A DNA stretch of 25,171 nucleotides from a virus: positions 1 through 25,171 of IMG/VR virus record IMGVR_UViG_3300022743_000019, one strand, 5' to 3'. Under the pieces are notes generated by a model that searched no databases, had not been told where the DNA came from, and saw nothing but the letters and a program-made list of their open reading frames with translations. Positions 1 to 15,686 of the stretch are shown one piece after another. The translations under genes were made by a program, and so were the position numbers. The first letter of the stretch is position 1. Each line of letters opens with the position of its first letter.

Positions 1-60
1 TTATGCAAATTTATTTTTGTCGAAAATCATGAAAAATCAAAGAAATTCGTCAATAAAACG

Positions 61-106: not shown

Positions 107-2200
107 TTAATTATTTCCGGCCAGTTCGTTATCCAGTCTGAAGTTGGTAAACCCGCATTCTTTAGTGACCATGAGGATTGTCTCGACCCGGCTGATCAAT
201 TCTTCCCGATGCGAGACCAAGAAGATATTTTTGTTCTGCTCCCGCCCCATGGCCTTCAAAATTGTCAATGCATTGTCCACACCATTTTGATCCATTCCGG
301 AATCCACCACTTCATCCAGCAAATACAGGTTGATAGAATGATTCAAGCTTTCGAACACATCCCGGAATGCCCAACTCATGGAGAGAATCAATCGGTTCCT
401 TTCCCCCCGGGATAGATTATTGAAATCAAATTCTTGACCCAATTGAATGATTTGCACAGACAGATCACTTTGGAATTTGACCTGATGTGGCAATCCGATC
501 TTGGTCAAATAGTTATCCAGCCGGTGGTTTAGGTATTGCAAATTTTGCTCAATAATTCGTTTACGGATAAATGAATCTTTATTAGTCAACAGTTTCAATA
601 GGAACTCTTGATGTTCATGCAATTTACTTAATTCATTGATTTCTGTCCATGAAATATCGGTCAGAGCATTTGTCTTGAGATGATCGGCTTGTTCTTTGTA
701 TGGATCAGTTTCCAGCAATTTGGTTTCAAGTTGCTTGTATAGATTGTCGATTGTGGTCTTATGGTTGATGGCATCATCAATATTCCCATAGAATACTTCT
801 GGCTTGGGGCCAAGATTAATCGGGGATAGAGATGATAGTTGTTCACCAAATGGATTTACTTCGGCACTTTTATCTTCCAATGTCTTCTTCAAATTGGCTA
901 GATCACTAGAGTGACGAATGGCTTCCGCCTCAGTTCGGTATTGTGTGACTGGCTTGGAACCAATATCCTTCACCAACTCTAGGGTTTGTTCCAGAGTGGA
1001 CTGAAATTGGGCCAGAGAATCTTTTGCAGTATGCAGGTCATTCTTTTTGGCAGTGATGACTGTATTATGCTGGGCATCATGGAAGTCTTGTCCGCAGGCA
1101 TAGCATTTGTGATCCTCCAAGGATAGGATTTCGGTTTCTAGCTTGGCGATTACTTTTTGTTCATGTGCAATATTCTTATTCAGGGCAGTGATCATAGCGG
1201 ATAGCTGACGTTGCTCTTCCTCTACCTTTAGCCATTCTTTTAGGTCGGCCCAAGCTTGTAGTTCGGGTTCGATGTTGAAACTATTCTTATCGGAATATGC
1301 TTTCGTGGCAGTTTTCACCTCAAAGTCATGTTTTTGTTGCCATGCAGTGGACCGAGCAACCAATGCGTTATATGCATCTTGCTGATTCTTCTGGTCATGC
1401 CAGACGCTCAAATCCTTATGGGCCAATAGTTCTGCGTCAATGTCAATGTTCTCTAAAGCTTGGATGGCACCTTGCATTTGTTGGATATCGGCTTCCCATG
1501 TCTTGGCCCAATTGTCGGATCGTTTGATCAAATCGTCGATGCTGGATTGAATTTTATTATTGCTCTCCTGTTGGGCTTTGATTCGGAATTCTTCTTCTTT
1601 GATGGAATCCTTCACGGTTTTGTTCAATTTTCTGAGCAATTCGGCTTTTTCAGACAATTGAGTGATACCCAGCAGTTGTTCAATAATTTCTCGCTGTTCG
1701 GCTGCTTTGAGTCCCAAGAATGGGGTAGTGTAGGTATTGAGTCCGATCAAATGTTTGAACATTTCCGAACCGAACCCAAGAACACGCTCGACTTCTTGTT
1801 GGGTTAGTTTGTTCTCACCTTGGGCTTCATCGTTAGACTCATCTTCTTTTTTGAACTCTTTGTCACCAACAATAAATCGAAATACGTTTGGTTTGCGACC
1901 TCTTTCAATTTTGTACGACTGTCCGTTCTGTTCGAACTCGACAGTAACCAGCATGTTTTTTGCATTTGTGGCATTGATTAAAAAATCCTTTCTGATATCT
2001 GAGATTGAAACGCCGAATAACCCATAGCATAGCGCATTGATGAGGGTACTTTTGCCCACACCATTTCGGCTACCGTTACCGCCCATGTCTAAGTTATCCC
2101 CTAGAATGAGGGTTAGATTGTGTTGGTCAAAAATGATTTCTTGTGTAATATTTCCGACAGAAAGAAAATTTTTGATTGTTACTTTTTTGATGATTAGCAT
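107..2200 (-). CDS. 46: gp46-like recombination endonuclease ATPase subunit (Rad50/SbcC family)
   Basis: This is the SMC-type ATPase of the phage Rad50-Mre11 complex, which with gp47 resects DNA ends for recombination-dependent replication and host DNA degradation. Visible in the 697 residues are a Walker A motif (N46-G-V-G-K50-S51), long polar heptad-like coiled-coil arms, a zinc-hook C366-Y-A-C369 almost exactly mid-protein, an ABC signature (L596-S-R-G-E600), a Walker B with catalytic Glu (L-L-D629-E630) and a switch His in V-S-H664. Length and layout fit gp46/SbcC; T4 gp46 is somewhat shorter (about 560 residues). The ATG directly follows the gp47 stop (TAA-ATG, no gap) with no clear Shine-Dalgarno, so translation is probably coupled to gp47. 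A terminator follows. The family is certain; the role is inferred from the family. Confidence 0.96.
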   Translation of the reverse strand: MLIIKKVTIKNFLSVGNITQEIIFDQHNLTLILGDNLDMGGNGSRNGVGKSTLINALCYGLFGVSISDIRKDFLINATNAKNMLVTVEFEQNGQSYKIERGRKPNVFRFIVGDKEFKKEDESNDEAQGENKLTQQEVERVLGFGSEMFKHLIGLNTYTTPFLGLKAAEQREIIEQLLGITQLSEKAELLRKLNKTVKDSIKEEEFRIKAQQESNNKIQSSIDDLIKRSDNWAKTWEADIQQMQGAIQALENIDIDAELLAHKDLSVWHDQKNQQDAYNALVARSTAWQQKHDFEVKTATKAYSDKNSFNIEPELQAWADLKEWLKVEEEQRQLSAMITALNKNIAHEQKVIAKLETEILSLEDHKCYACGQDFHDAQHNTVITAKKNDLHTAKDSLAQFQSTLEQTLELVKDIGSKPVTQYRTEAEAIRHSSDLANLKKTLEDKSAEVNPFGEQLSSLSPINLGPKPEVFYGNIDDAINHKTTIDNLYKQLETKLLETDPYKEQADHLKTNALTDISWTEINELSKLHEHQEFLLKLLTNKDSFIRKRIIEQNLQYLNHRLDNYLTKIGLPHQVKFQSDLSVQIIQLGQEFDFNNLSRGERNRLILSMSWAFRDVFESLNHSINLYLLDEVVDSGMDQNGVDNALTILKAMGREQNKNIFLVSHREELISRVETILMVTKECGFTNFRLDNELAGNN

Positions 2201-3220
2201 TTAGTTCAAGTTGTTGTAGATATCAATTAGGAGGGATTTGTTGATCTTTTCACTGTCAATCGCGGATAACTGTGTCAGGACAATTTTATCCACACTTTCA
2301 AATTCAATATTTTCATCCCCCCATTCCTCTGAATGCTCTTCATTTTTTGGAGGAACGAAAGAGATTTCCCGTACCTCATATAGGGTTTGAAAATTGTCTT
2401 TCAGTAGGTTAGATTCCTCGAATGACAAATCAACGTCCACCGTCACCTTGGCAAACGTATTGGAATCCAAGTATAGTTCTGGATTCTCCAGCAATTTACT
2501 CAGGGTAAGTGTTCTGAATTTTGGAGCATCCGGCCATGCCTCGTAATGAGGTTTGCCGCCCCATTCTAGCATCATCATGCCACGTTCGTCATCCCATGCA
2601 TCTGCAAATGTATGGGGGAAGGCATTTCCAATGTAATGGATGTTGCCCCGACTCTGGCGTTTATGGAAGTGCCCCGTGAAGACGTACTCTTGATTCGGAA
2701 ACTCATTAGAGGTTAGGCCCCCATGATCCGGCATTAAAACCTGTGCATTCATGTAGAAATTAGGAAGCTCTAGGTGGGCAAATAGATATTTCGAATGAAT
2801 TGTTTTCATCTTTCGCCATTCTTCCCCCACTAGCCATGGCACGAGTGCGACATTCCCGACTTCCATAATTTCGTTCACGATTGTGATATTTGGGAAATGA
2901 CGAGCATAGGGAAAACTGTTCAAATCTAGTGAATGTTTGTGAAAACTATCGTGGTTTCCTTGAATTAGATACACTTTTTCAAAGTTTTTGCTCAATTTCT
3001 CGATACAACGATCACTGTACGTTAGGGTAGTGACGTGGATAGTCGCCCTGTGATCATGCCAATCGCCGAGAATGATGCAGGTATCGCAATCATTCTTCTT
3101 GGCGGTATGGATGAACCAGTCGATGAAGTTTTCACAGTCATCGTTATGGGCTTTGCTGTTGTTGCGACGGCCAAAGTGTAGGTCCGTCGCGGCTGCAACT
3201 TTTTTGAATAGATTTGTCAT
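2201..3220 (-). CDS. 47: gp47-like recombination endonuclease nuclease subunit (Mre11/SbcD family)
   Basis: This is the metallophosphoesterase partner of gp46; the pair processes DNA ends for recombination and replication. All Mre11 metal-binding motifs are visible: D13-x-H15, G-D53-x-H55, G-N89-H90-D91, H149, and G-H184-x-H186. The 339-residue length matches T4 gp47. The start is fixed: an in-frame TAG lies four codons upstream, inside the -10 box, and D13 is a catalytic residue, so no later start is plausible. The gene is first in a two-gene operon with gp46. Its sigma70-type promoter lies so close that the predicted +1 is the A of the ATG, and no Shine-Dalgarno is present. The family call is firm; leaderless expression is an inference. 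Confidence 0.96.
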   Translation of the reverse strand: MTNLFKKVAAATDLHFGRRNNSKAHNDDCENFIDWFIHTAKKNDCDTCIILGDWHDHRATIHVTTLTYSDRCIEKLSKNFEKVYLIQGNHDSFHKHSLDLNSFPYARHFPNITIVNEIMEVGNVALVPWLVGEEWRKMKTIHSKYLFAHLELPNFYMNAQVLMPDHGGLTSNEFPNQEYVFTGHFHKRQSRGNIHYIGNAFPHTFADAWDDERGMMMLEWGGKPHYEAWPDAPKFRTLTLSKLLENPELYLDSNTFAKVTVDVDLSFEESNLLKDNFQTLYEVREISFVPPKNEEHSEEWGDENIEFESVDKIVLTQLSAIDSEKINKSLLIDIYNNLN

Positions 3221-3226
3221 GCGAAG

Positions 3227-3255
3227 ATTCTAGCACAACCAAAAGGAAAAGGCAA
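3227..3255 (-). promoter_or_regulatory. sigma70-type promoter for gp47-gp46
   Basis: On the minus strand, TTGCCT (3250-3255) is the -35 and TAGAAT (3227-3232) the -10, with a 17-bp spacer ending in the extended -10 element TGC. The predicted start site (7 bases past the -10) is 3220, the first base of the gp47 ATG. The -35 lies within the 3' arm of the gp55 terminator. Confidence 0.75.
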
Positions 3256-3272
3256 CATCTCTGTTGCCTTTT
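3247..3272 (-). terminator. Rho-independent terminator after gp55
   Basis: A perfect 10-bp inverted repeat (3247-3256 with 3263-3272) has the core GGCAAC/GTTGCC, a 6-base loop and A4/T4 ends. It starts 7 bases after the gp55 stop on the minus strand and separates gp55 from gp47. The hairpin is symmetric, so it could also act on the plus strand, though no plus-strand gene ends here. Confidence 0.9.
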
Positions 3273-3279
3273 ATTGGGT

Positions 3280-4218
3280 TTATTCGAACAGTGACGGGGG
3301 TAGAGTCTCTGCTTCATCCGGCTCATCCGGCTCTGACTCCTTCAATGCCGCTGCCCTCTCTCGTTCAGCCACCAATGCATACTCATGTTCTAGTTGACGG
3401 GTGAAGCTGGGAACTTGGCCTGTTTCAATGAGTAGATCGTCTCGAATGATCTGATTTTTCTTTTCTGTTAGAACGATTCGGCGAAATGAATTGGTCAACA
3501 CAGTTGTGTAGTAGGCAAATGGATTATCGGACTTGGATTCATCAAACTGTAGGCCGATCTGACTTAGTTGTAGAAGTGCTTGGCCCCGCATTTCTTCGAT
3601 GTAAGTATACCCCCTCCAGTTGCTCCGCATCGAATAGCGCTCGCATAGTTTCATGTACATGAGGGCTAGGCCTTTGGTGGTGATCCCCTTGTCAATCGTG
3701 AATTCGCCCTCTTCCGGGGTGCCGGACCAATGACTTCGCACGACTTCGGTTAGTTTACCATCAATAAATGCATGGTGTTGGAAAGGTGCAAAATTGACAC
3801 GTGCATGGCGGTCAGCAACACTTCTTGGGGTTTTCTTGCGGGATGAATCTAATGGAATATGCGAATAAGTCATTATTCGAAAGACCAGATCAGATTCTAG
3901 GACTGAATCTGCATTGACTCGAAATTGAGAGGCTTTTGGTTTGTCGCCTTTGCAGCCATTTTCTTGCCAACTAATTACGCCTTTTTCCCATAGTTCTGCG
4001 GTTCGTTTATCGGCTTTGCGTTGTTTTGCATGGGCGATTGCGCCGTCCGGGAATTTATCGGTGGGCTTATGGTTAATATCATCCAATGTTGGAACAATGA
4101 CATCATATTCGGCGTACTTTTGATCCAGTACCCAACTGTATGTCAGCTTGCTTTTATGGATTTCTTTTAATAACTCTTTGTTACTTAGGTAGATTTTGGT
4201 GGTGGAAGTGTTCAACAT
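3280..4218 (-). CDS. 55: gp55-like sigma factor for late transcription
   Basis: In T4, gp55 replaces the host sigma on RNA polymerase, recognises TATAAATA late promoters and couples late transcription to replication through gp45 and gp33. The sigma-like part is in the C-terminal half, with a helix containing M-R-G-Q-A-L-L-Q, then a stretch ending D-N-P-F-A-Y-Y-T, then R-R-I-V-L-T-E-K-K-N-Q; these match the region-2-like core of phage gp55 proteins. The C-terminal tail is acidic and ends in L-F-E. A hydrophobic-acidic C-terminus is where T4 gp55 binds the sliding clamp. I place the start at ATG 4216-4218 (312 residues, longer than T4 gp55 at 185). The frame stays open to a TTG at 4308, but that would run through the promoter. 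No Shine-Dalgarno precedes the ATG. Confidence 0.85.
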   Translation of the reverse strand: MLNTSTTKIYLSNKELLKEIHKSKLTYSWVLDQKYAEYDVIVPTLDDINHKPTDKFPDGAIAHAKQRKADKRTAELWEKGVISWQENGCKGDKPKASQFRVNADSVLESDLVFRIMTYSHIPLDSSRKKTPRSVADRHARVNFAPFQHHAFIDGKLTEVVRSHWSGTPEEGEFTIDKGITTKGLALMYMKLCERYSMRSNWRGYTYIEEMRGQALLQLSQIGLQFDESKSDNPFAYYTTVLTNSFRRIVLTEKKNQIIRDDLLIETGQVPSFTRQLEHEYALVAERERAAALKESEPDEPDEAETLPPSLFE

Positions 4219-4224
4219 AATACG

Positions 4225-4253
4225 ATTATACCAAGAATATTTCGTAATGTCAA
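4225..4253 (-). promoter_or_regulatory. Consensus sigma70 promoter for gp55
   Basis: On the minus strand there is an exact TTGACA (4248-4253), a 17-bp spacer and an exact TATAAT (4225-4230), with the extended -10 element TGG. This is about as strong as a sigma70 promoter can look, as expected for an early phage gene. The predicted +1 is 4218, the first base of the gp55 ATG. Confidence 0.9.
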
Positions 4254-4307: not shown

Positions 4308-4916
4308 ATGCGCATTACTGAGTTGTCCAGATTATTAGTGATCATGCCGGGTAGATTTCAGCCGTGGCATATTGGTCATCGCACGGCGTATATCAATCTA
4401 TGCAAATCGTTTAGGGCTAGTCCTGTCTATATTGCCACCAGCAATAAGGTTGAATATCCTAAAAGTCCGCTGTCATTTTCTCAAAAGGCATATCTAATGG
4501 GATTGACTGGGATTGATCTGGATAAAGTCGTGGAAACAGAGCAACCCTATAGGGCTACTGAAATTACTTCGAACTTCGATTCACGCAAGACGGTATTGGT
4601 TTATGCTGTATCCGAGAAAGATATGGGAATTGATCCAAGATTTAGTTTTGAGCCATTGAAAGATGGGACTCCGAATTATTTCCAGCCGTTTGATCCCCAT
4701 TTGGACATGAAGCCATTCGGGGAACACGCATATATCTATGTGATGCCAACGGTTGAATTCTCAGTATTGGGGGAACCCATGTCATCTGCATCCGAAATTC
4801 GGGACATGTATTTGAATGCAAATGTGAATCAGCGGATGCGTATTATTGCCAACTTGTATGGGAAATTCGACAAGAGTGCATTTGAAATATTAAATAATGG
4901 AATTTGTCATGAGTGA
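4308..4916 (+). CDS. Nucleotidyltransferase of the cytidylyltransferase/NMN adenylyltransferase fold
   Basis: The protein has the hallmarks of the HIGH-type nucleotidyltransferase superfamily: G15-R-F-Q-P-W-H21-I-G-H24 near the N-terminus, and S159-S-A-S-E-I-R165 near the C-terminus, matching the ISSTxxR motif. Its 202 residues are typical for single-domain enzymes of this fold. Such enzymes transfer a nucleotidyl group from NTP to a phosphorylated acceptor (NMN, pantetheine phosphate, choline or glycerol phosphate); the acceptor here cannot be read from sequence. It is first in the plus-strand tail operon and overlaps the next gene by 8 bases, so it is probably expressed with virion genes. 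The fold is well supported; the substrate is unknown. Confidence 0.85.
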   Translation: MRITELSRLLVIMPGRFQPWHIGHRTAYINLCKSFRASPVYIATSNKVEYPKSPLSFSQKAYLMGLTGIDLDKVVETEQPYRATEITSNFDSRKTVLVYAVSEKDMGIDPRFSFEPLKDGTPNYFQPFDPHLDMKPFGEHAYIYVMPTVEFSVLGEPMSSASEIRDMYLNANVNQRMRIIANLYGKFDKSAFEILNNGICHE

Positions 4917-5844: not shown

Positions 5845-7068
5845 ATGAGAATATTTGAAATCATCAACGAGGCATTGAAGCCAAGCGAATATCGTCCCTA
5901 CGTCAAAGGGTGGGACAAGGCTAAATGGAATGATATATTTGATGGGAAGTACCGTCTTTATATTCCATTGATTGGCAGTGCTGGTGCCGGTACAGAAATC
6001 GACCCTAATCCAAAAGTGGCGGATGCATTGGCATCGGTGGGGTTTATCATTTCTGATTATGCGAAGGGACTGGCGACAAAATCTGATAGTTTGAAAAATA
6101 CACAATATAAAATCGGTAAAATTATTGCCGATCCCAGATTTGAAATCGACCCGTCCATTAAATCATTATTTGATAACGATCCAGCACGTGCCTCTGTTAA
6201 GACGGTTTCCGATGATTTATTGGTAGTAATTTCACGCCACCCATACGATGTGGCGGGAATGAGTACTGATAGGGGCTGGTCCAGTTGCATGAACCTGCGG
6301 ACTGGAATCAATAAAGAGTACGTCGCAATGGATGTCAAATATGGGACACTAGTTGCATACCTGATCCACAAAGATGATACCAACATCAAATCCCCAATAG
6401 CCCGGATGTTGATCAAACCATTTGTGAACGTATTCGACCCATCCGAGGTGGCATTCGGGGTGGAAAATAAAGTTTATGGGACAGCACCGGTATCATTCGC
6501 AAAAACGGTGGTTGATTGGGCAGATTCAATGAATGAGCAGAGGAAATTGAATGGGGTATATATGTTCTCCCCTAATTTATATCTGGACAATGACTCGACT
6601 GACCCCGTTAAAGTTGTCGGGAATATTGCGGATACAAAGAGTGAAACAGCGGAAATTAAAAAGGTGATTCGTGATGGGTTAGCCATCCAAAATATCAAGA
6701 ATCCAAGTGAACGGGTTCAATTAGCTGCAGTTAATCAGAATGGGAATGCAATTCAGTATATCAAGAATTCAAGTGAACAGGTTCAATTAGCTGCAGTTAA
6801 TCGGAGTGGGAATGCAATTTGGCATATCAATAATCCAAGTGAACAGGTGCAATTAGCTGCAGTGAAACAGAATGGGAATGCAATTGGTTATATCGAGAAT
6901 CCGAGTGAACCGGTGCAATTAGCTGCAGTGAAACAGAATGGGAATGCAATTTGGCATATCAATAATCCAAGTGAACAGGTGCAATTAGCTGCAGTGAAAC
7001 AGAATGGGAATGCAATTGGTTATATCGAGAACCCGGCACCTAGCGTATTGAAATTATACGAACGGTGA
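5845..7068 (+). CDS. Phage protein with C-terminal 22-residue tandem repeats (DUF4116-like)
   Basis: The function of this 407-residue protein is unknown. The N-terminus reads M-R-I-F-E-I-I-N-E-A-L, a short leader-like stretch similar to ones I recall at the N-termini of unrelated T4-like phage proteins. A globular region follows, with a conserved-looking block S-R-H-P-Y-D-V-A-G-M-S-T-D-R-G-W-S-S-C-M-N-L around residues 130-151. From about residue 280 there are five full repeats and one partial repeat of the pattern I-x-N-P-S-E-x-V-Q-L-A-A-V-x-Q-N-G-N-A-I, like the repeats called DUF4116 in phage and bacterial proteins. These probably form a helical solenoid. It sits between gp53 and the baseplate hub gene, so it may be a virion or assembly protein, but nothing proves this. 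The triple AGGA site upstream supports the start. Confidence 0.75.
   Translation: MRIFEIINEALKPSEYRPYVKGWDKAKWNDIFDGKYRLYIPLIGSAGAGTEIDPNPKVADALASVGFIISDYAKGLATKSDSLKNTQYKIGKIIADPRFEIDPSIKSLFDNDPARASVKTVSDDLLVVISRHPYDVAGMSTDRGWSSCMNLRTGINKEYVAMDVKYGTLVAYLIHKDDTNIKSPIARMLIKPFVNVFDPSEVAFGVENKVYGTAPVSFAKTVVDWADSMNEQRKLNGVYMFSPNLYLDNDSTDPVKVVGNIADTKSETAEIKKVIRDGLAIQNIKNPSERVQLAAVNQNGNAIQYIKNSSEQVQLAAVNRSGNAIWHINNPSEQVQLAAVKQNGNAIGYIENPSEPVQLAAVKQNGNAIWHINNPSEQVQLAAVKQNGNAIGYIENPAPSVLKLYER
6682..7050 (+). repeat. 66-bp in-frame tandem repeats
   Basis: Units start at 6682, 6748, 6814, 6880, 6946 and 7012 (the last partial), each encoding 22 residues. Units 3 and 5 (6814-6879 and 6946-7011) are identical. 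The perfect match extends over 93 bases, from 6807-6899 to 6939-7031, showing that a two-unit, 132-bp block was duplicated recently. Earlier units have diverged more. Confidence 0.95.
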
Positions 7069-7160: not shown

Positions 7161-7168
7161 TATAAATA
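7161..7168 (+). promoter_or_regulatory. Late promoter (exact TATAAATA) before the hub gene
   Basis: This is an exact match to the T4 late promoter octamer, preceded by a T-run and CAG (the same TTTTTCAG precedes the copy at 15713). Only four bases separate the octamer from the ATG at 7173, and an in-frame TAG overlaps its end. By T4 geometry the start site would fall on the start codon. Confidence 0.75.
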
Positions 7169-7172
7169 GGGT

Positions 7173-9587
7173 ATGTCCGATAAACCCTCAGTTGATGAAA
7201 CGTCAAATAAAGCCAAATTGGTTGCCGCAACCATGGCTAATTCTCCTGCACTTGCCAATGCACGTGCAGCACAGGTGCGGGAGTCAGCATCTCCAAGTAC
7301 CGTAACGCCTGCCCAAGAACAATTGGCAAACGGGGCGGAATTCAAGGAAAATATTTTACAGGCATATGATAGCTCCACGTACTACATGCGTCTGACCATG
7401 GTGAACCCCGCATTAGTGGAAGAGTTCAATCCAAAAAATGGTATCATCATTGCGGAAACTGGCACGACCACTGACATTGTGATCAAAGACTGCACCCTCA
7501 ATACAATTGTTGGGTGGAGTCCAAAAAGTCAGGGCGCATTTGCATCAAGTGGAAAAATGACATTGGTGGAACCTCTGGGTGTAAAATTTCTGGATAAATT
7601 GATCAATGCGGCCCGAGCATTAAGAATCCCCAATCACACTCAGGCCAGATACTATCTTGAAGTAGGGTTTACCGGGCGGGATTACCGCACGGGCGATGCA
7701 GTGATCATCCCCAGTGGCCCAAACGAAAAGATGGTCCAAAAGAGTGCAAATGATACGTTCCCCCATATTTGGAGCATTTTCTTCAATAAGGTGGAGATGA
7801 CTATTTCCGAAACCGGGGGTGTGTACGATGTTGACTTCAGAAATCAATTAGAAGCAGCCCAAGAAAATACGGTGGAAAATTTGAAAGATGTTGTGAACGT
7901 CGCCGCAAACAATTTAGGTGATTACTTCAGCGGGTTGGCAAAAGCATTGAATGATCGCGAAGAGAATAATGTGGGTATCACAAAATTTGTGAAAAATGAA
8001 TTCAACTTTGTCCTTGATCCGAAAATCGCGAACTACAAGTTTGCAAACTTCAGCCCATCCGAAGTATCCAAGGCCAAGAACTCCCAAACTAAAGATGGCA
8101 AGAATGTACCAACTTTCCGGGAAGGTACGGGTATTCTGGGTCTAATCAATGTCATCATGAGTGGAACGGAAGACTTCCAGCAAATGCAAAAGGACAAAAC
8201 TGGTCCAAGTAAAAAGACAAATGAGGGGGTTGCAACCAAGAAAGATAAAGAGCAAGCAGATGTCACGGCGGATTTGAATACATTTTTCCGAGTGCAGACA
8301 TGGTGTGAGTGCACTGAATTCGACTTCTTCACGAAAGATTATGCCAAGAAATTGACATACTTCATTTTTCCTACGTTGACTCCACAATTGGTCACACCAT
8401 CCGAGCACGATGCTGCAACCACGGGGGCCTACAAAGAGTATATTACTAACCAGAAAAAGCAAGCTCTTAAAAATAAAGGGTTACTTGCAAAAAGATACGA
8501 TTACGTCTATACTGGTAATAACGACAGTGTCATCAGCTTCAAGATTCAATTGACGCATAGTTTCTTCCAAGCTCAGCCCCCGTCTGATAGCAGCTTTGTG
8601 AGTGATGCAAGCCAACTTGGTGCCAAGATGGACCCTAATCTTACTCCTGAATTATTGAAAAATAAACAGGAAGTGAAAAAACGTTGGGAAACCAATCGCA
8701 CACAAATCATCGAATTAGAAAAAAAGGGTAATGGCAATAGTGCTGATGCTAATCGACTACGAAAAGAACAAGAACAATTAAAGCAAGCAGTCATCTCCAC
8801 TGAACAGGAAATGAAGCGAAATGCATTGGGCGAAGTTCGAATATTTGATGTCAATGGTGGAAGAGCATCCATCTCGCCCAAATTGCACTACACGGATGAT
8901 CCGACCGCAAAGAGAGTGAGTGATAATGAATTGGACCCCCAATATATCGTCTATCGATTCTTGGAAGATGATGTTGGTACCGAGTTAACCAATGGTGGCA
9001 TCGAGGGTCCCAATACCAAGAACCGTGGTGCATTCGCATACATGTTCAATCAGCTTCGCCAAAGTGGTGACCTGATTCAAATCAAATTGGACATTGTGGG
9101 TGACCCATACTGGTTTGGCAGAGACAATAAATCATTGGCACACCTGAAACAGAACATTGCCGGAAAGCAATCCATGAGTGCGGATGATTCCAACATTCTA
9201 TCCAAGAATTATGCAGATTACGAAAAAGGTAGTAACTATTTTTACATCCGAATACAAGGACCGGCTGATTATGATCCGGCCACGGGTTACATGAAATTCG
9301 ACACGAATGATGTGATCAGCGGGGTATATTGCGTCAAAACAGTGACATCAAATTTCAGTGATGGTAAATTTACACAGACGATTGATGCAATTAAGGATTT
9401 GAGTATTCTATCCCCATTCATTGAGAAGTCAGAAGCACAATTCGCGAAAGAGCGAAATGACCGACTTGTCGCGGATAAAGAGTTTGCACAAGCCAATAAG
9501 ACAGAGGTGCAGAAATTGGCAGATTCAAACAGTAAATACTCGGATAAAGCAAAAGAAATGCTGACCAAGTTGAACAGCAAGAAATGA
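7173..9587 (+). CDS. Putative baseplate hub/structural protein
   Basis: This is a large (804-residue) structural protein directly upstream of the gp5-like spike gene, where a hub partner (gp27-like) would be expected. The C-terminal third contains F-N-Q-L-R-Q-S-G-D-L-I-Q-I-K-L-D-I-V-G-D-P-Y-W-F-G (around residues 627-651) and then S-G-V-Y-C-V-K-T-V-T-S-N-F-S-D-G-K-F-T-Q, patterns I recall from hub and tail proteins of large myoviruses. Residues near 490-550 are polar, charged and probably helical or coiled. No signal peptide or membrane segment is seen. The start is set by an in-frame TAG two codons upstream. T4 gp27 is about half this length, so orthology is not claimed. It is separated from the spike gene by 5 bases. 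Confidence 0.65.
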   Translation: MSDKPSVDETSNKAKLVAATMANSPALANARAAQVRESASPSTVTPAQEQLANGAEFKENILQAYDSSTYYMRLTMVNPALVEEFNPKNGIIIAETGTTTDIVIKDCTLNTIVGWSPKSQGAFASSGKMTLVEPLGVKFLDKLINAARALRIPNHTQARYYLEVGFTGRDYRTGDAVIIPSGPNEKMVQKSANDTFPHIWSIFFNKVEMTISETGGVYDVDFRNQLEAAQENTVENLKDVVNVAANNLGDYFSGLAKALNDREENNVGITKFVKNEFNFVLDPKIANYKFANFSPSEVSKAKNSQTKDGKNVPTFREGTGILGLINVIMSGTEDFQQMQKDKTGPSKKTNEGVATKKDKEQADVTADLNTFFRVQTWCECTEFDFFTKDYAKKLTYFIFPTLTPQLVTPSEHDAATTGAYKEYITNQKKQALKNKGLLAKRYDYVYTGNNDSVISFKIQLTHSFFQAQPPSDSSFVSDASQLGAKMDPNLTPELLKNKQEVKKRWETNRTQIIELEKKGNGNSADANRLRKEQEQLKQAVISTEQEMKRNALGEVRIFDVNGGRASISPKLHYTDDPTAKRVSDNELDPQYIVYRFLEDDVGTELTNGGIEGPNTKNRGAFAYMFNQLRQSGDLIQIKLDIVGDPYWFGRDNKSLAHLKQNIAGKQSMSADDSNILSKNYADYEKGSNYFYIRIQGPADYDPATGYMKFDTNDVISGVYCVKTVTSNFSDGKFTQTIDAIKDLSILSPFIEKSEAQFAKERNDRLVADKEFAQANKTEVQKLADSNSKYSDKAKEMLTKLNSKK

Positions 9588-13306: not shown

Positions 13307-13726
13307 TCACTCAGCAGTGAGTTCGTATGGCTTATTCCACTTACCGACATTGACATCGATGTACCATCCAGTATTGAAGTAATCCGTTTGGACATCGCTA
13401 TGGTCATAGTTTCCATTGTTCATGGCTGGGATAACTTCGCTCAGGAAATCCTTAGCAATGCCAGAAAAATGATCTTTGTACCAATAGTGGTTGACATCCA
13501 GATTGCCATTTTTGCGAATGGATTCGATGTGGACGGCGGACATTTCACGACGACTGCCAAATGTGGAAATATAGTTCTCGATGAAATCGATGTTACTGGA
13601 TTTGATATTCAGCACGAGGGTGGAATGATGGCGAACTGCAATAGATGCTTTGACATTGTATTTCTTGCAAATAGCCTTGATAGTGGGTGCCAGTTTTGCT
13701 TTGAGGTCCTGAGAAACATAAGCCAT
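13307..13726 (-). CDS. Conserved-looking phage protein of unknown function
   Basis: The 139-residue protein begins M-A-Y-V-S-Q-D-L-K-A-K-L and has an alpha/beta look, with a likely strand S-I-A-V-R-H-H-S-T-L-V-L-N-I-K near residue 30. It ends G-W-Y-I-D-V-N-V-G-K-W-N-K-P-Y-E-L-T-A-E. The pattern faintly recalls the small 'large polyvalent protein-associated' domains of phages, but I cannot assign it. The ATG at 13724-13726 is chosen over an upstream in-frame TTG (13735). It is first gene of the operon that continues with the 57-residue protein, ligase and the 80-residue protein, and it is driven by the promoter at 13760-13788. Confidence 0.75.
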   Translation of the reverse strand: MAYVSQDLKAKLAPTIKAICKKYNVKASIAVRHHSTLVLNIKSSNIDFIENYISTFGSRREMSAVHIESIRKNGNLDVNHYWYKDHFSGIAKDFLSEVIPAMNNGNYDHSDVQTDYFNTGWYIDVNVGKWNKPYELTAE

Positions 13727-13734
13727 GATATTCA

Positions 13735-13769
13735 ATCCAATGTTTGTTGCGATGTATGAATTATAGCAA
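13735..13769 (-). repeat. 35-bp repeat, copy A (promoter -10 plus leader)
   Basis: This copy is identical over 35 bases to 14758-14792. On the minus strand it runs from the extended -10 element through the whole 5' leader to a few bases before the coding sequence, so a promoter-plus-leader cassette has been duplicated in front of two unrelated genes. Confidence 0.95.
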
Positions 13770-13788
13770 GAAATGAATTAATCACCAA
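13760..13788 (-). promoter_or_regulatory. sigma70-type promoter for the ligase operon
   Basis: On the minus strand, TTGGTG (13783-13788), a 17-bp spacer ending in TGC, and TATAAT (13760-13765). The predicted start site near 13753 gives a leader of about 27 bases. The -35 lies within the last codons of the upstream gene. Confidence 0.85.
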
Positions 13789-14224
13789 ATGCCAGCAATT
13801 CTTCCATGAGCCATTCTTTGTACAAAATTTGGGCGGAATTATACCCATCGACATTTATCTGGGAGGTTCCTGACCAATGTCGAGCAACCCCGAGTGCGGC
13901 ATCAATCGATTCAGTAGGGTTGAGCTTGGTGGCGTGCAGGGCCGAAAGATATGCATTGTATGCAGGTCTCTCAGAATAGGCGGCAGTATCTACCAAACTG
14001 TTTAACTCAATATTCCCACGCATGTATTCCCGAATGGATTTAATGGCTAGAAAAGATGCATTTCCGGGGTCCCGGAATAATTCATGATATGTCTGAGCGT
14101 TCTGACATGCATGCTCCACTATCCGAGCAAGCCATGCCTTGATCACTGTCGGCGGCAATTGCTCAGTATCATCCTTTGATCGGATATCAATCCCGCCATA
14201 CTTGATCACATCAAACAGACTCAT
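13778..14224 (-). CDS. Hypothetical phage protein
   Basis: No family is recognised for this 148-residue, mainly helical, mildly acidic protein. It begins M-S-L-F-D-V-I-K-Y-G-G-I-D-I-R and contains L-P-P-T-V-I-K-A-W-L-A-R-I-V-E-H-A. There is no signal peptide or membrane segment. It starts 3 bases after the stop of the gene at 14228 and has no clear Shine-Dalgarno, so it is probably translationally coupled and transcribed from the promoter at 14783-14811. Confidence 0.72.
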   Translation of the reverse strand: MSLFDVIKYGGIDIRSKDDTEQLPPTVIKAWLARIVEHACQNAQTYHELFRDPGNASFLAIKSIREYMRGNIELNSLVDTAAYSERPAYNAYLSALHATKLNPTESIDAALGVARHWSGTSQINVDGYNSAQILYKEWLMEELLAFGD

Positions 14225-14227
14225 GAC

Positions 14228-14749
14228 TCAAACAAATTCGTGGTTGTCCACGCGCAAAGCGGTCACTGAATCAATGTCAAATGTACGGACAATAACCTTG
14301 TCTTCCAACTCGCCTTGAGATTTTTCATCAGAGTGAGATGTCACCAGACCTTGGATTTCAGATGCATCAATGGATTTGCCATCCAAGAAGTATTCAGTTT
14401 TGCCACTTTTCAGGAAAATGACTTCCAGATAGTTTTTCTCGGTGCCATCCTTGACATGTTTCACAATGGGCATGTTCTCGACACGGGTGCCCCACTTGCG
14501 GTCACCCAGCTTGAAGCTATCTGGGTTCTTACCTTCGTTGCGCAGACGGCGCTTCACCATATTCTCATATCCATTGGAATTCTTGTTTTGAAAAACCATA
14601 ACGCTGGCACCGACCATGCGCTTTTGGACACGGCCCTGCATTGGGTTGCTTTTGCCCCCAGCCAGTTTAGGGACGGTCATGGTATCAATGCCGACAAAGC
14701 TTGCACCGTTGACGTTTTCAAATGCGTTCAGAACTGTAGAGAATTTCAT
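14228..14749 (-). CDS. Conserved-looking phage protein of unknown function
   Basis: The 173-residue basic-to-neutral protein has a striking block around residues 35-90: N-P-M-Q-G-R-V-Q-K, V-M-V-F-Q-N-K-N-S-N-G-Y, M-V-K-R-R-L, then L-G-D-R-K-W-G-T-R. I recall similar stretches in hypothetical proteins of large phages but cannot attach a function. The C-terminal half reads like a small beta domain (Y-L-E-V-I-F-L-K-S-G-K-T-E-Y-F-L-D-G). The basic N-terminal block could bind nucleic acid, but this is a guess. It is first in a two-gene unit with its own sigma70 promoter and a leader of about 27 bases. Confidence 0.78.
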   Translation of the reverse strand: MKFSTVLNAFENVNGASFVGIDTMTVPKLAGGKSNPMQGRVQKRMVGASVMVFQNKNSNGYENMVKRRLRNEGKNPDSFKLGDRKWGTRVENMPIVKHVKDGTEKNYLEVIFLKSGKTEYFLDGKSIDASEIQGLVTSHSDEKSQGELEDKVIVRTFDIDSVTALRVDNHEFV

Positions 14750-14757
14750 GATTTTCG

Positions 14758-14792
14758 ATCCAATGTTTGTTGCGATGTATGAATTATAGCAA
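14758..14792 (-). repeat. 35-bp repeat, copy B (promoter -10 plus leader)
   Basis: This copy is identical over 35 bases to 13735-13769. Upstream of it, the -35 and spacer resemble the third promoter (15043-15076) more closely than copy A, suggesting a mosaic history. Confidence 0.95.
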
Positions 14793-14811
14793 ATTTCGAA
14801 TTTATTGCCAA
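14783..14811 (-). promoter_or_regulatory. sigma70-type promoter for the 173-residue protein gene
   Basis: On the minus strand, TTGGCA (14806-14811), a 17-bp spacer ending in TGC, and TATAAT (14783-14788). The -35 follows the stop codon of the upstream gene by a single base, so the promoter is packed against that gene. Confidence 0.88.
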
Positions 14812-14812
14812 A

Positions 14813-15016
14813 TTAGGCGAAGTCGAAGATGTATTCGGGTTTGCACTGTGATTTGGATGCGATGACCCGGTGATCGGCACTATTGTTCAGATGTTGGTAG
14901 ATTTTGCGAGCCACGGGCTCATCGCATTGCACATAAAGTGCGCCATCAAAGAAATATGCATGGCTCCCCTTCAAGACGGGATGAATCGTGGACATGATTG
15001 ATTTTTCGAATTTCAT
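14813..15016 (-). CDS. Small hypothetical protein (67 residues)
   Basis: No function is recognised. The frame is open to 15073, but the promoter at 15045-15073 would start transcription near 15038, so the first usable ATG is at 15014-15016, giving a protein beginning M-K-F-E-K-S-I-M-S. The product contains H-A-Y-F-F-D-G-A-L-Y-V-Q-C-D-E-P-V-A-R-K-I-Y, typical of a small alpha/beta protein. The ribosome binding site is weak. It has its own early promoter and is followed directly by the next promoter. Confidence 0.7.
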   Translation of the reverse strand: MKFEKSIMSTIHPVLKGSHAYFFDGALYVQCDEPVARKIYQHLNNSADHRVIASKSQCKPEYIFDFA

Positions 15017-15044
15017 GGTATGGGTTCTTAAATTTAAAGATCGA

Positions 15045-15073
15045 ATTGTAGCAAATTTTGAATTAATTGCCAA
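15045..15073 (-). promoter_or_regulatory. sigma70-type promoter for the 67-residue protein gene
   Basis: On the minus strand, TTGGCA (15068-15073), a 17-bp spacer ending in TGC, and TACAAT (15045-15050). Across 34 bases (15043-15076) it matches the promoter at 14781-14814 at 31 positions, including the spacer. Confidence 0.82.
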
Positions 15074-15096
15074 ATTTGACTATGCTGGTCGGTAAC

Positions 15097-15125
15097 TTGA
15101 CTCTGGTCCGGGTCTGTGCTATCAT
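15097..15125 (+). promoter_or_regulatory. sigma70-type promoter for the HNH gene
   Basis: On the plus strand, TTGACT (15097-15102), a 17-bp spacer ending in TGC, and TATCAT (15120-15125). The predicted start near 15132 gives a leader of about 27 bases. It diverges from the minus-strand promoter at 15045-15073. Confidence 0.65.
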
Positions 15126-15144: not shown

Positions 15145-15152
15145 AATAAATA
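15145..15152 (+). promoter_or_regulatory. Late-promoter-like octamer at the HNH gene
   Basis: AATAAATA (7 of 8 matches to TATAAATA) lies six bases before the HNH ATG and downstream of the sigma70 promoter. By T4 geometry the start site would be about one base before the ATG. Confidence 0.55.
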
Positions 15153-15158
15153 CTCCCG

Positions 15159-15686
15159 ATGTCTGATACTTTAGTTTTGAATGGCGACTACCAGCCGCTT
15201 TGCTTTTTTCCATTGAGCACGATTGATTGGCGAACAGCCATCAAGGCGGTCTATTCTGAAAAAGTAAATGTAGTCAAAAACTACGACAACTGGGTAGTCC
15301 ATAGCCAAAATTTATCCATCCCCGTGCCCAGTATTGTGGTCATGCGAGAGTACGTGGATTCGTCTAAATCCCGGGAGGCAATGTTTAATAGAACTAGCAT
15401 TTATGTCAGGGATAAATTCACATGCCAGTATTGTGGTAAAAAATTCGGATTTGTGGATTTAACACTGGACCATGTTATTCCAAAATCGACCGGAGGTGAT
15501 ACTTCTTGGGATAACATCGTCTCGGCATGTGTCCCATGCAATCAGAAAAAAGGGGACAAGTTCGTCCGCCCCATCAAACAGCCATTTGTCCCGACATTCC
15601 GTCAATTAGAGGCAAATTATCGAAAGGCACATGATTTTCCTTTGGACGAAGTCCACGAATCATGGGTTGAGTATCTGGGAACGTAG
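15159..15686 (+). CDS. HNH endonuclease
   Basis: The 175-residue protein matches the common bacterial and phage HNH family beginning T-L-V-L-N-x-D-Y-x-P-L. A zinc-binding C89-x2-C92 and C124-x2-C127 frame the catalytic D104-H105, N119 and N128, within L-T-L-D-H-V-I-P-K-S-T-G-G. The fold cuts or nicks DNA; in phages such enzymes act as homing endonucleases, packaging aids or DNA-processing enzymes, and the role here is not determined. The start is fixed by an in-frame TAA four codons upstream and by agreement with the family N-terminus. It stands alone between an early minus-strand island and the gp25-gp6 operon, with both a sigma70-type and a late-type promoter. Confidence 0.9.
   Translation: MSDTLVLNGDYQPLCFFPLSTIDWRTAIKAVYSEKVNVVKNYDNWVVHSQNLSIPVPSIVVMREYVDSSKSREAMFNRTSIYVRDKFTCQYCGKKFGFVDLTLDHVIPKSTGGDTSWDNIVSACVPCNQKKGDKFVRPIKQPFVPTFRQLEANYRKAHDFPLDEVHESWVEYLGT

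Follow-up and report, generated by a model that had tools for sequence, protein, structure and literature searches.

Our analysis suggests, with high probability, that the phage genes gp55 and gp47 are expressed from leaderless mRNAs and that they belong to a leaderless mode of expression found more widely in their lineage, a reading that best explains both the two genes and the pattern in related genomes. Leaderless expression in the window (the whole stretch of DNA that was analysed) is strongly supported for gp55 and moderately supported for gp47, and its recurrence in the lineage, among early and late genes alike, is predicted with good support. In the mechanism we propose, the host sigma70 RNA polymerase would transcribe gp55 and gp47 early, with +1 on the A of the start codon, and the resulting mRNAs would begin with 5'-AUG and be translated without a Shine-Dalgarno (SD) sequence by direct binding of the ribosome to that AUG; the 5' ends and the manner of ribosome initiation are what we infer from the DNA. 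Later, the gp55 polymerase would likewise start on the A of the ATG at late boxes. If gp55 is made early from a leaderless mRNA, it would connect the two classes, as the sigma factor for the late leaderless genes would itself come from a leaderless message. The window's phage belongs to a group of jumbo and uncultured phages related to T4, and this lineage would in this way keep two initiation modes, one leadered with an SD and one leaderless with the promoter abutting the ATG. The putative sigma70 leaderless set includes gp55, gp46, gp47, the phrog_298 exonuclease, primase and thymidylate synthase, and the putative gp55-type set includes the gp25 wedge, tail tube, head proteins and HNH endonuclease.

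The window is a whole IMG/VR record of 25,171 bp, a genome fragment; a tRNA search of the window returned none, and gp55 was found in none of the bacterial genome contigs in which it was sought, giving no hint of a host. The gp55-gp47-gp46 block lies on the minus strand, with plus-strand genes for head, baseplate and tail beside it; the gene order is that of PA5oct, RaK2 and 121Q. The T4-type late sigma factor gp55 (3280..4218, minus strand; phrog_12791 E=4.6e-76, phrog_234 E=9e-20) starts at ATG 4218 and its protein ends in ...LPPSLFE, at the C terminus where a hydrophobic clamp-binding motif would be expected in this family. The SbcD-like recombination nuclease gp47 (2201..3220, minus strand; phrog_100 E=9.6e-66) starts at ATG 3220 and has a metallophosphoesterase domain (PF00149, 27.7 bits against a cut-off of 21.5). 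The ATG of the SbcC-like gp46 (107..2200, minus strand; phrog_77 E=4e-105) abuts the gp47 stop (TAAATG), and gp46 is presumably translationally coupled to gp47. Between gp55 and gp47 lies a terminator-like hairpin of 11 pairs (3247..3272, both strands), which overlaps the gp47 -35 box and would set gp47 apart from the gp55 transcript. The nearest cultured relatives share 42-44% identity with the window at gp55 and about 50% at gp47, and identity to the window gp55 is at most 60% among the relatives found, the highest being that of L304.

Upstream of gp55 we found the sigma70 promoter TTGACA-17-(TG)-TATAAT (4225..4253, minus strand; -35 box 4253-4248, -10 box 4230-4225), the full consensus that the initial annotation had described, matching at 12/12 positions and separated from ATG 4218 by CGTATT. 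The gp47 promoter, TTGCCT-17-(TGc)-TAGAAT (3227..3255, minus strand), has a -35 box at 3255-3250 (4/6) and a -10 box at 3232-3227 (5/6), followed by CTTCGC and ATG 3220. In both genes, as had been claimed, the -10 hexamer ends 6 nt before an ATG, a spacing that puts the predicted +1 on the A of the start codon (4218 and 3220) and would give each mRNA a 5'-terminal AUG. The claim that neither gene has an SD also held: the best anti-SD energies are -2.8 and -2.6 kcal/mol, and the sequences responsible are unusable because they lie at or upstream of the -10 box, outside the predicted mRNA. The absence of an SD is by itself not diagnostic, because several leadered early genes of the window also have poor SDs (-3.1 at 14749, -1.4 at 15016).

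Of the 44 promoter-like sites found in the first 20 kb, the gp55 promoter alone matches at 12/12 positions, and its consensus pattern occurs once in the whole record. Promoters matching at 9/12 positions are not significant per se in the window (44 found compared to 47.7 expected in shuffled DNA), and since such sites are as common in shuffled DNA, the evidence for the gp47 promoter, itself a 9/12 match, is its position. Using dinucleotide shuffles of 20 upstream regions and a simple sigma70 score model, with a score and cut-off of our own choice, 0.002 genes would be expected to have a promoter of that score at a spacing of 6 and 0.006 at 5-8, compared to the 2 observed (per-gene P of 1e-4 for gp47 and <5e-5 for gp55). 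Among the 20 gene starts of the window, these are the only promoters that strong at 5-8 nt.

The gp47 start cannot be moved, as the initial annotation had argued: the in-frame TAG in the -10 box upstream and D13 (in TDLH) downstream are both present. This argument is limited to gp47, because the gp55 frame of the window is open upstream, to TTG 4308. For gp55 we take the homologues to settle the start: the window protein and its relatives in contigs G001 and G002 align without gaps from M1, L087 and L088, which have the same kind of upstream sequence, carry an in-frame TAA 7 codons before the gp55 ATG, and the remaining homologues start within a few residues of the window M1. The N-terminal alignment of relatives, which had been proposed as a check, is favorable for gp47 as well, which aligns with its homologues from residue 1-4.

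The same promoter arrangement is found before gp55 in a minority of relatives. In a first set of 45 distinct gp55 homologues with a clear sigma70 promoter, 3 (the window, L087 and L088) have it 6, 7 and 7 nt from the ATG and lack a usable SD, whereas in the other 42 the -10 box is 18-44 nt from the ATG and nearly all have an SD of -3 to -9 kcal/mol. Throughout L084-L088 the gp55 box is 6-7 nt from the ATG with no SD. A second search found gp55 of L304, the closest relative found (60% identity), with TTGACT-18-TACAAT at 6 nt and no SD, and gp55 of L335 (6 nt) and L373 (7 nt), both also without an SD, while all remaining homologues were at 18-42 nt with an SD. No clear gp55 promoter in either search lies at 8-17 nt. 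In PA5oct and L002 the early gp55 promoter is present and a leader of about 17 nt is kept. A single origin of leaderless gp55 was considered and is not favored: at least two changes of state are required on the gp55 tree, but the window is a long branch there and the tree did not include L304, L335 and L373.

The partner of gp55 is more variable. Short spacing of the gp47 promoter without an SD occurs in L089 (5 nt), L069 (6 nt, with a weaker promoter) and L147 (8 nt), and gp47 of the close relatives L304 and L087 is leadered with an SD. In G013, the contig of L304, it is gp46 that appears as the leaderless partner (TTGACA-17-TAAACT, 7 nt). As gp55 appears leaderless in relatives in which gp47 has an SD, with gp46 instead in G013, leaderless promoters seem to come and go within the block. 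Of the two coordinated leaderless genes that the initial annotation had proposed, the leaderless gp55 recurs in relatives, but its gp47 partner is not conserved and has an SD in the closest ones.

Promoter-to-ATG spacings were pooled over five large contigs of relatives (G008, G009, G010, G012 and G013) by counts made without a gene caller; these counts and public annotations guard against our simple caller, which takes the first ATG. TTGACn-16..18-TAnnnT ended 6 nt before an ATG 30 times compared to 7.9 expected (P=1.4e-9), and the NATAAATA late box ended 5 nt before an ATG 42 times compared to 7.2 expected (P=5e-19), where the P values are to be read as effect sizes and not as a blind test, since the peaks had been spotted in some genomes before pooling, and where one orthologue can enter the count from several genomes. 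Both peaks are confined to a single base (30 at 6 nt with neighbours of 9 and 8; 42 at 5 nt with neighbours of 14 and 8), and the five contigs show no excess of GTG or TTG at 5 nt (4 compared to 5.8 expected). G013, which was added after the peaks had first been seen, has 9 sites at 6 nt compared to 2.1 and 4 at 5 nt compared to 1.0. The T4 late box is 8 bp long with its first position at -13 (PMC2988020) and the sigma70 -10 box spans -12 to -7 (PMC7598289), so both spacings would put +1 on the A of the ATG; two different spacings, each fitting the geometry of its own promoter, are hard to explain otherwise.

The SD is missing in the short-spacing class only: SD energies at short compared to longer spacing have medians of 0.0 and -5.5 (p=1.6e-5) and of 0.0 and -4.2 (p=1e-9), and 30-60% of the genes in these genomes have a strong SD. 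In L084-L089, the nearest multi-contig group to the window, the late spacing is 7 and not 5, and in a cyanophage-like group the late-box peak is at 6 nt. Neither spacing peak was seen in T4, RaK2, 121Q or the examined part of Phosso, and KVP40 lacks the late-box peak. The two genes had been described as an unusual case for a T4-like phage; what had looked like a two-gene peculiarity appears to be a recurring mode of the lineage that includes late genes.

Within the window, the late promoter box TATAAATA (7161..7168, plus strand) ends 4 nt before ATG 7173 of a virion structural protein (7173..9587, plus strand; phrog_11190 E=5e-48), a predicted leaderless late gene without an SD. A second late box, AATAAATA (15145..15152, plus strand), ends 6 nt before ATG 15159 of an HNH endonuclease (15159..15686, plus strand; phrog_16726 E=1.5e-31), with a predicted leader of 0-1 nt; this gene also has a second, leadered promoter of sigma70 type, TTGACT-17-(TG)-TATCAT (15097..15125, plus strand), 33 nt before the ATG. 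Orthologues of the HNH gene in G010 and G013 have a late box at 5 nt and no SD. Window gene 15777 was considered as a further leaderless late gene and rejected, as its SD is strong (-9.7), the box GGTAAATA is 7 nt from the start and another box lies 56 nt upstream. Leaderless-looking starts are nevertheless found in many gp25-like orthologues of this gene. Across relatives, the baseplate wedge gene gp25 has a late box at 5 nt and no SD in about 10 contigs from several groups, and further leaderless-type late genes encode the tail tube, head proteins and HNH endonuclease. Sigma70 promoters of leaderless type precede the phrog_298 exonuclease in G009, G010 and PA5oct, unlike in 121Q and RaK2, where this gene is leadered with an SD. 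Such promoters also stand before the primase genes of G009 and G010, the thymidylate synthase gene of G009 and, in G013, before gp46 and a MazG-like gene. The split between the two promoter classes fits the expected timing, with DNA metabolism early and structure late.

Cultured phages offer cases in which the predicted starts can be compared with annotation. In HTVC008M (L398, NC_020484), a T4-like Pelagibacter phage, ATAAATA-N5/6-ATG occurs 10 times compared to 2 at 12-13 nt, and all five sites checked are annotated starts (tape measure, DNA end protector, tail tube cap, baseplate wedge and wedge initiator). PA5oct resembles the window in its gp55-gp47-gp46 order, in its gp55 (44% identity) and gp47 (50%), and in having one sigma70 and one late leaderless candidate: the exonuclease PQE65_gp244 (TTGACA-17-TATAAT, 7 nt) and the structural gene PQE65_gp262 (TATAAATA, 5 nt), both annotated from the predicted ATG. 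It differs in that its own gp55 and gp47 are leadered, and its late peak is weak (8 compared to 3.8). Like this lineage, T4 has a gp55 and late genes preceded by NATAAATA boxes (TATAAATA; PMC2988020), but it shows no excess of boxes 5 nt from the ATG (2 compared to a background of 2.3). Sigma70 leaderless promoters in T4 were considered and rejected, with 4 sites compared to 0.6 at 5 nt, background at 6 nt, and the listed sites looking like chance matches inside genes.

The type case of a leaderless mRNA is that of lambda cI, whose 5'-terminal AUG is bound directly by ribosomes. In Sinorhizobium meliloti, 171 leaderless mRNAs have been mapped (PMC3616915). The window genes are predicted to share with known leaderless mRNAs a +1 on the A of the AUG, an AUG start and the absence of an SD; the lineage would differ from them in that leaderless expression is predicted for many lytic genes and from two promoter classes. 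The late promoters of phiKZ type (T-3ATG+1 motif at the transcription start; PMC7598289) also place an ATG at the transcription start of a jumbo phage, but phiKZ is an unrelated system with a phage-encoded RNA polymerase, no -10 box and +1 on a G. The AR9 paper describes phage transcripts as 'often leaderless', and in the open-licence literature we found no report that genes of T4-like phages, cyanophages or jumbo phages are transcribed without leaders in this way.

Other explanations of these data have to be weighed against leaderless initiation. If the promoters are real and +1 falls a few bases off, the genes would have leaders of 1-5 nt and be near-leaderless without an SD; the gp47 promoters at 8-11 nt without an SD in L147, L134 and L101/L130, the late-box peak of the cyanophage-like group and the spacing of 6 at 15159 agree with this, but the narrowness of the pooled peaks and the A of the ATG as the expected initiating purine there make it quite improbable. 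For gp47 only, the box could be accidental, with expression of the gene depending on read-through or re-initiation on the gp55 transcript, the likely situation in RaK2 and 121Q, where the genes overlap. We consider this unlikely: although the 4/6 -35 box lies inside a terminator arm and the gp55-gp47 arrangement comes with an SD in L304, L087 and PA5oct, the hairpin separates the two genes, gp47 has no SD, a promoter at this spacing has P=1e-4, and gp47 of L089 and L069 likewise combines a close promoter with the lack of an SD.

It is extremely unlikely that gp55 carries an N-terminal extension (from ATG 4278 or TTG 4308) encoded on a longer transcript while the promoter serves something else. 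The open frame and an AAAAGG at about 4260 would allow it, yet close homologues share M1 and have an in-frame stop before it, the extension is absent from the homologues, the gene upstream of gp55 is divergent and our scan found no other promoter between them. The large share of genes without a strong SD in these genomes could also mean that the host ignores SDs and that initiation is ordinarily SD-independent, with promoter spacing incidental; this is very unlikely, as SD loss tracks promoter spacing and the peaks are base-exact and AUG-specific.

If leaderless initiation is correct, the DNA of T4-related phages reveals two modes of translation initiation, the leaderless one common to host-sigma and phage-sigma promoters and lacking in their classic relative T4, and start-codon and SD-based annotation would change for many uncultured phage genes. 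The leaderless mode may suit a host that is good at leaderless translation, or protect genes when SD initiation drops. A more speculative proposal, to which we give little credence, is that the leaderless class is kept on purpose, with phage takeover weakening SD-dependent 30S initiation, the early and late leaderless genes continuing to be translated, and the initiation mode acting as a second layer of gene control in lytic T4-related phages. PA5oct and HTVC008M would be cultured, testable examples for the question of why lytic phages keep leaderless genes.

Several minor observations were made in the course of this work. An early promoter is repeated before three short minus-strand genes of the window (13724-13790, 14747-14813 and 15043-15076), which have leaders of about 22-27 nt and weak SDs; two copies share the 5' UTR TATAATTCATACATCGCAACAAACATTGGAT (85% identity over 67 nt) and the third shares the promoter part, and the repeated leader CTATAATTCATACATCGCAACAAACATT was found in no contig of the viral contig collection. 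In the PA5oct primase gene (L257 9384; PA5oct 145884), the -10 box of a full-consensus promoter directly adjoins the annotated GTG, and 6 nt beyond the box, at the leaderless position, is another in-frame GTG. Divergent from gp55 in the window is a cytidylyltransferase-like gene (4308-4916, plus strand; weak phrog_395 match) with the late box CATAAATA 24 nt upstream of the start codon, and Phosso has an annotated adenylyltransferase at the matching position. The protein encoded at 5845-7068 (plus strand) ends in about six 22-aa repeats (NPSEQVQLAAVKQNGNAI) and begins with MRIFEIINEA, which we take to resemble the capsid-targeting N-termini of internal head proteins in T4; similar starts (MRLKEFEIFEA, MKIAELTEA) are found in several predicted late leaderless genes of relatives.
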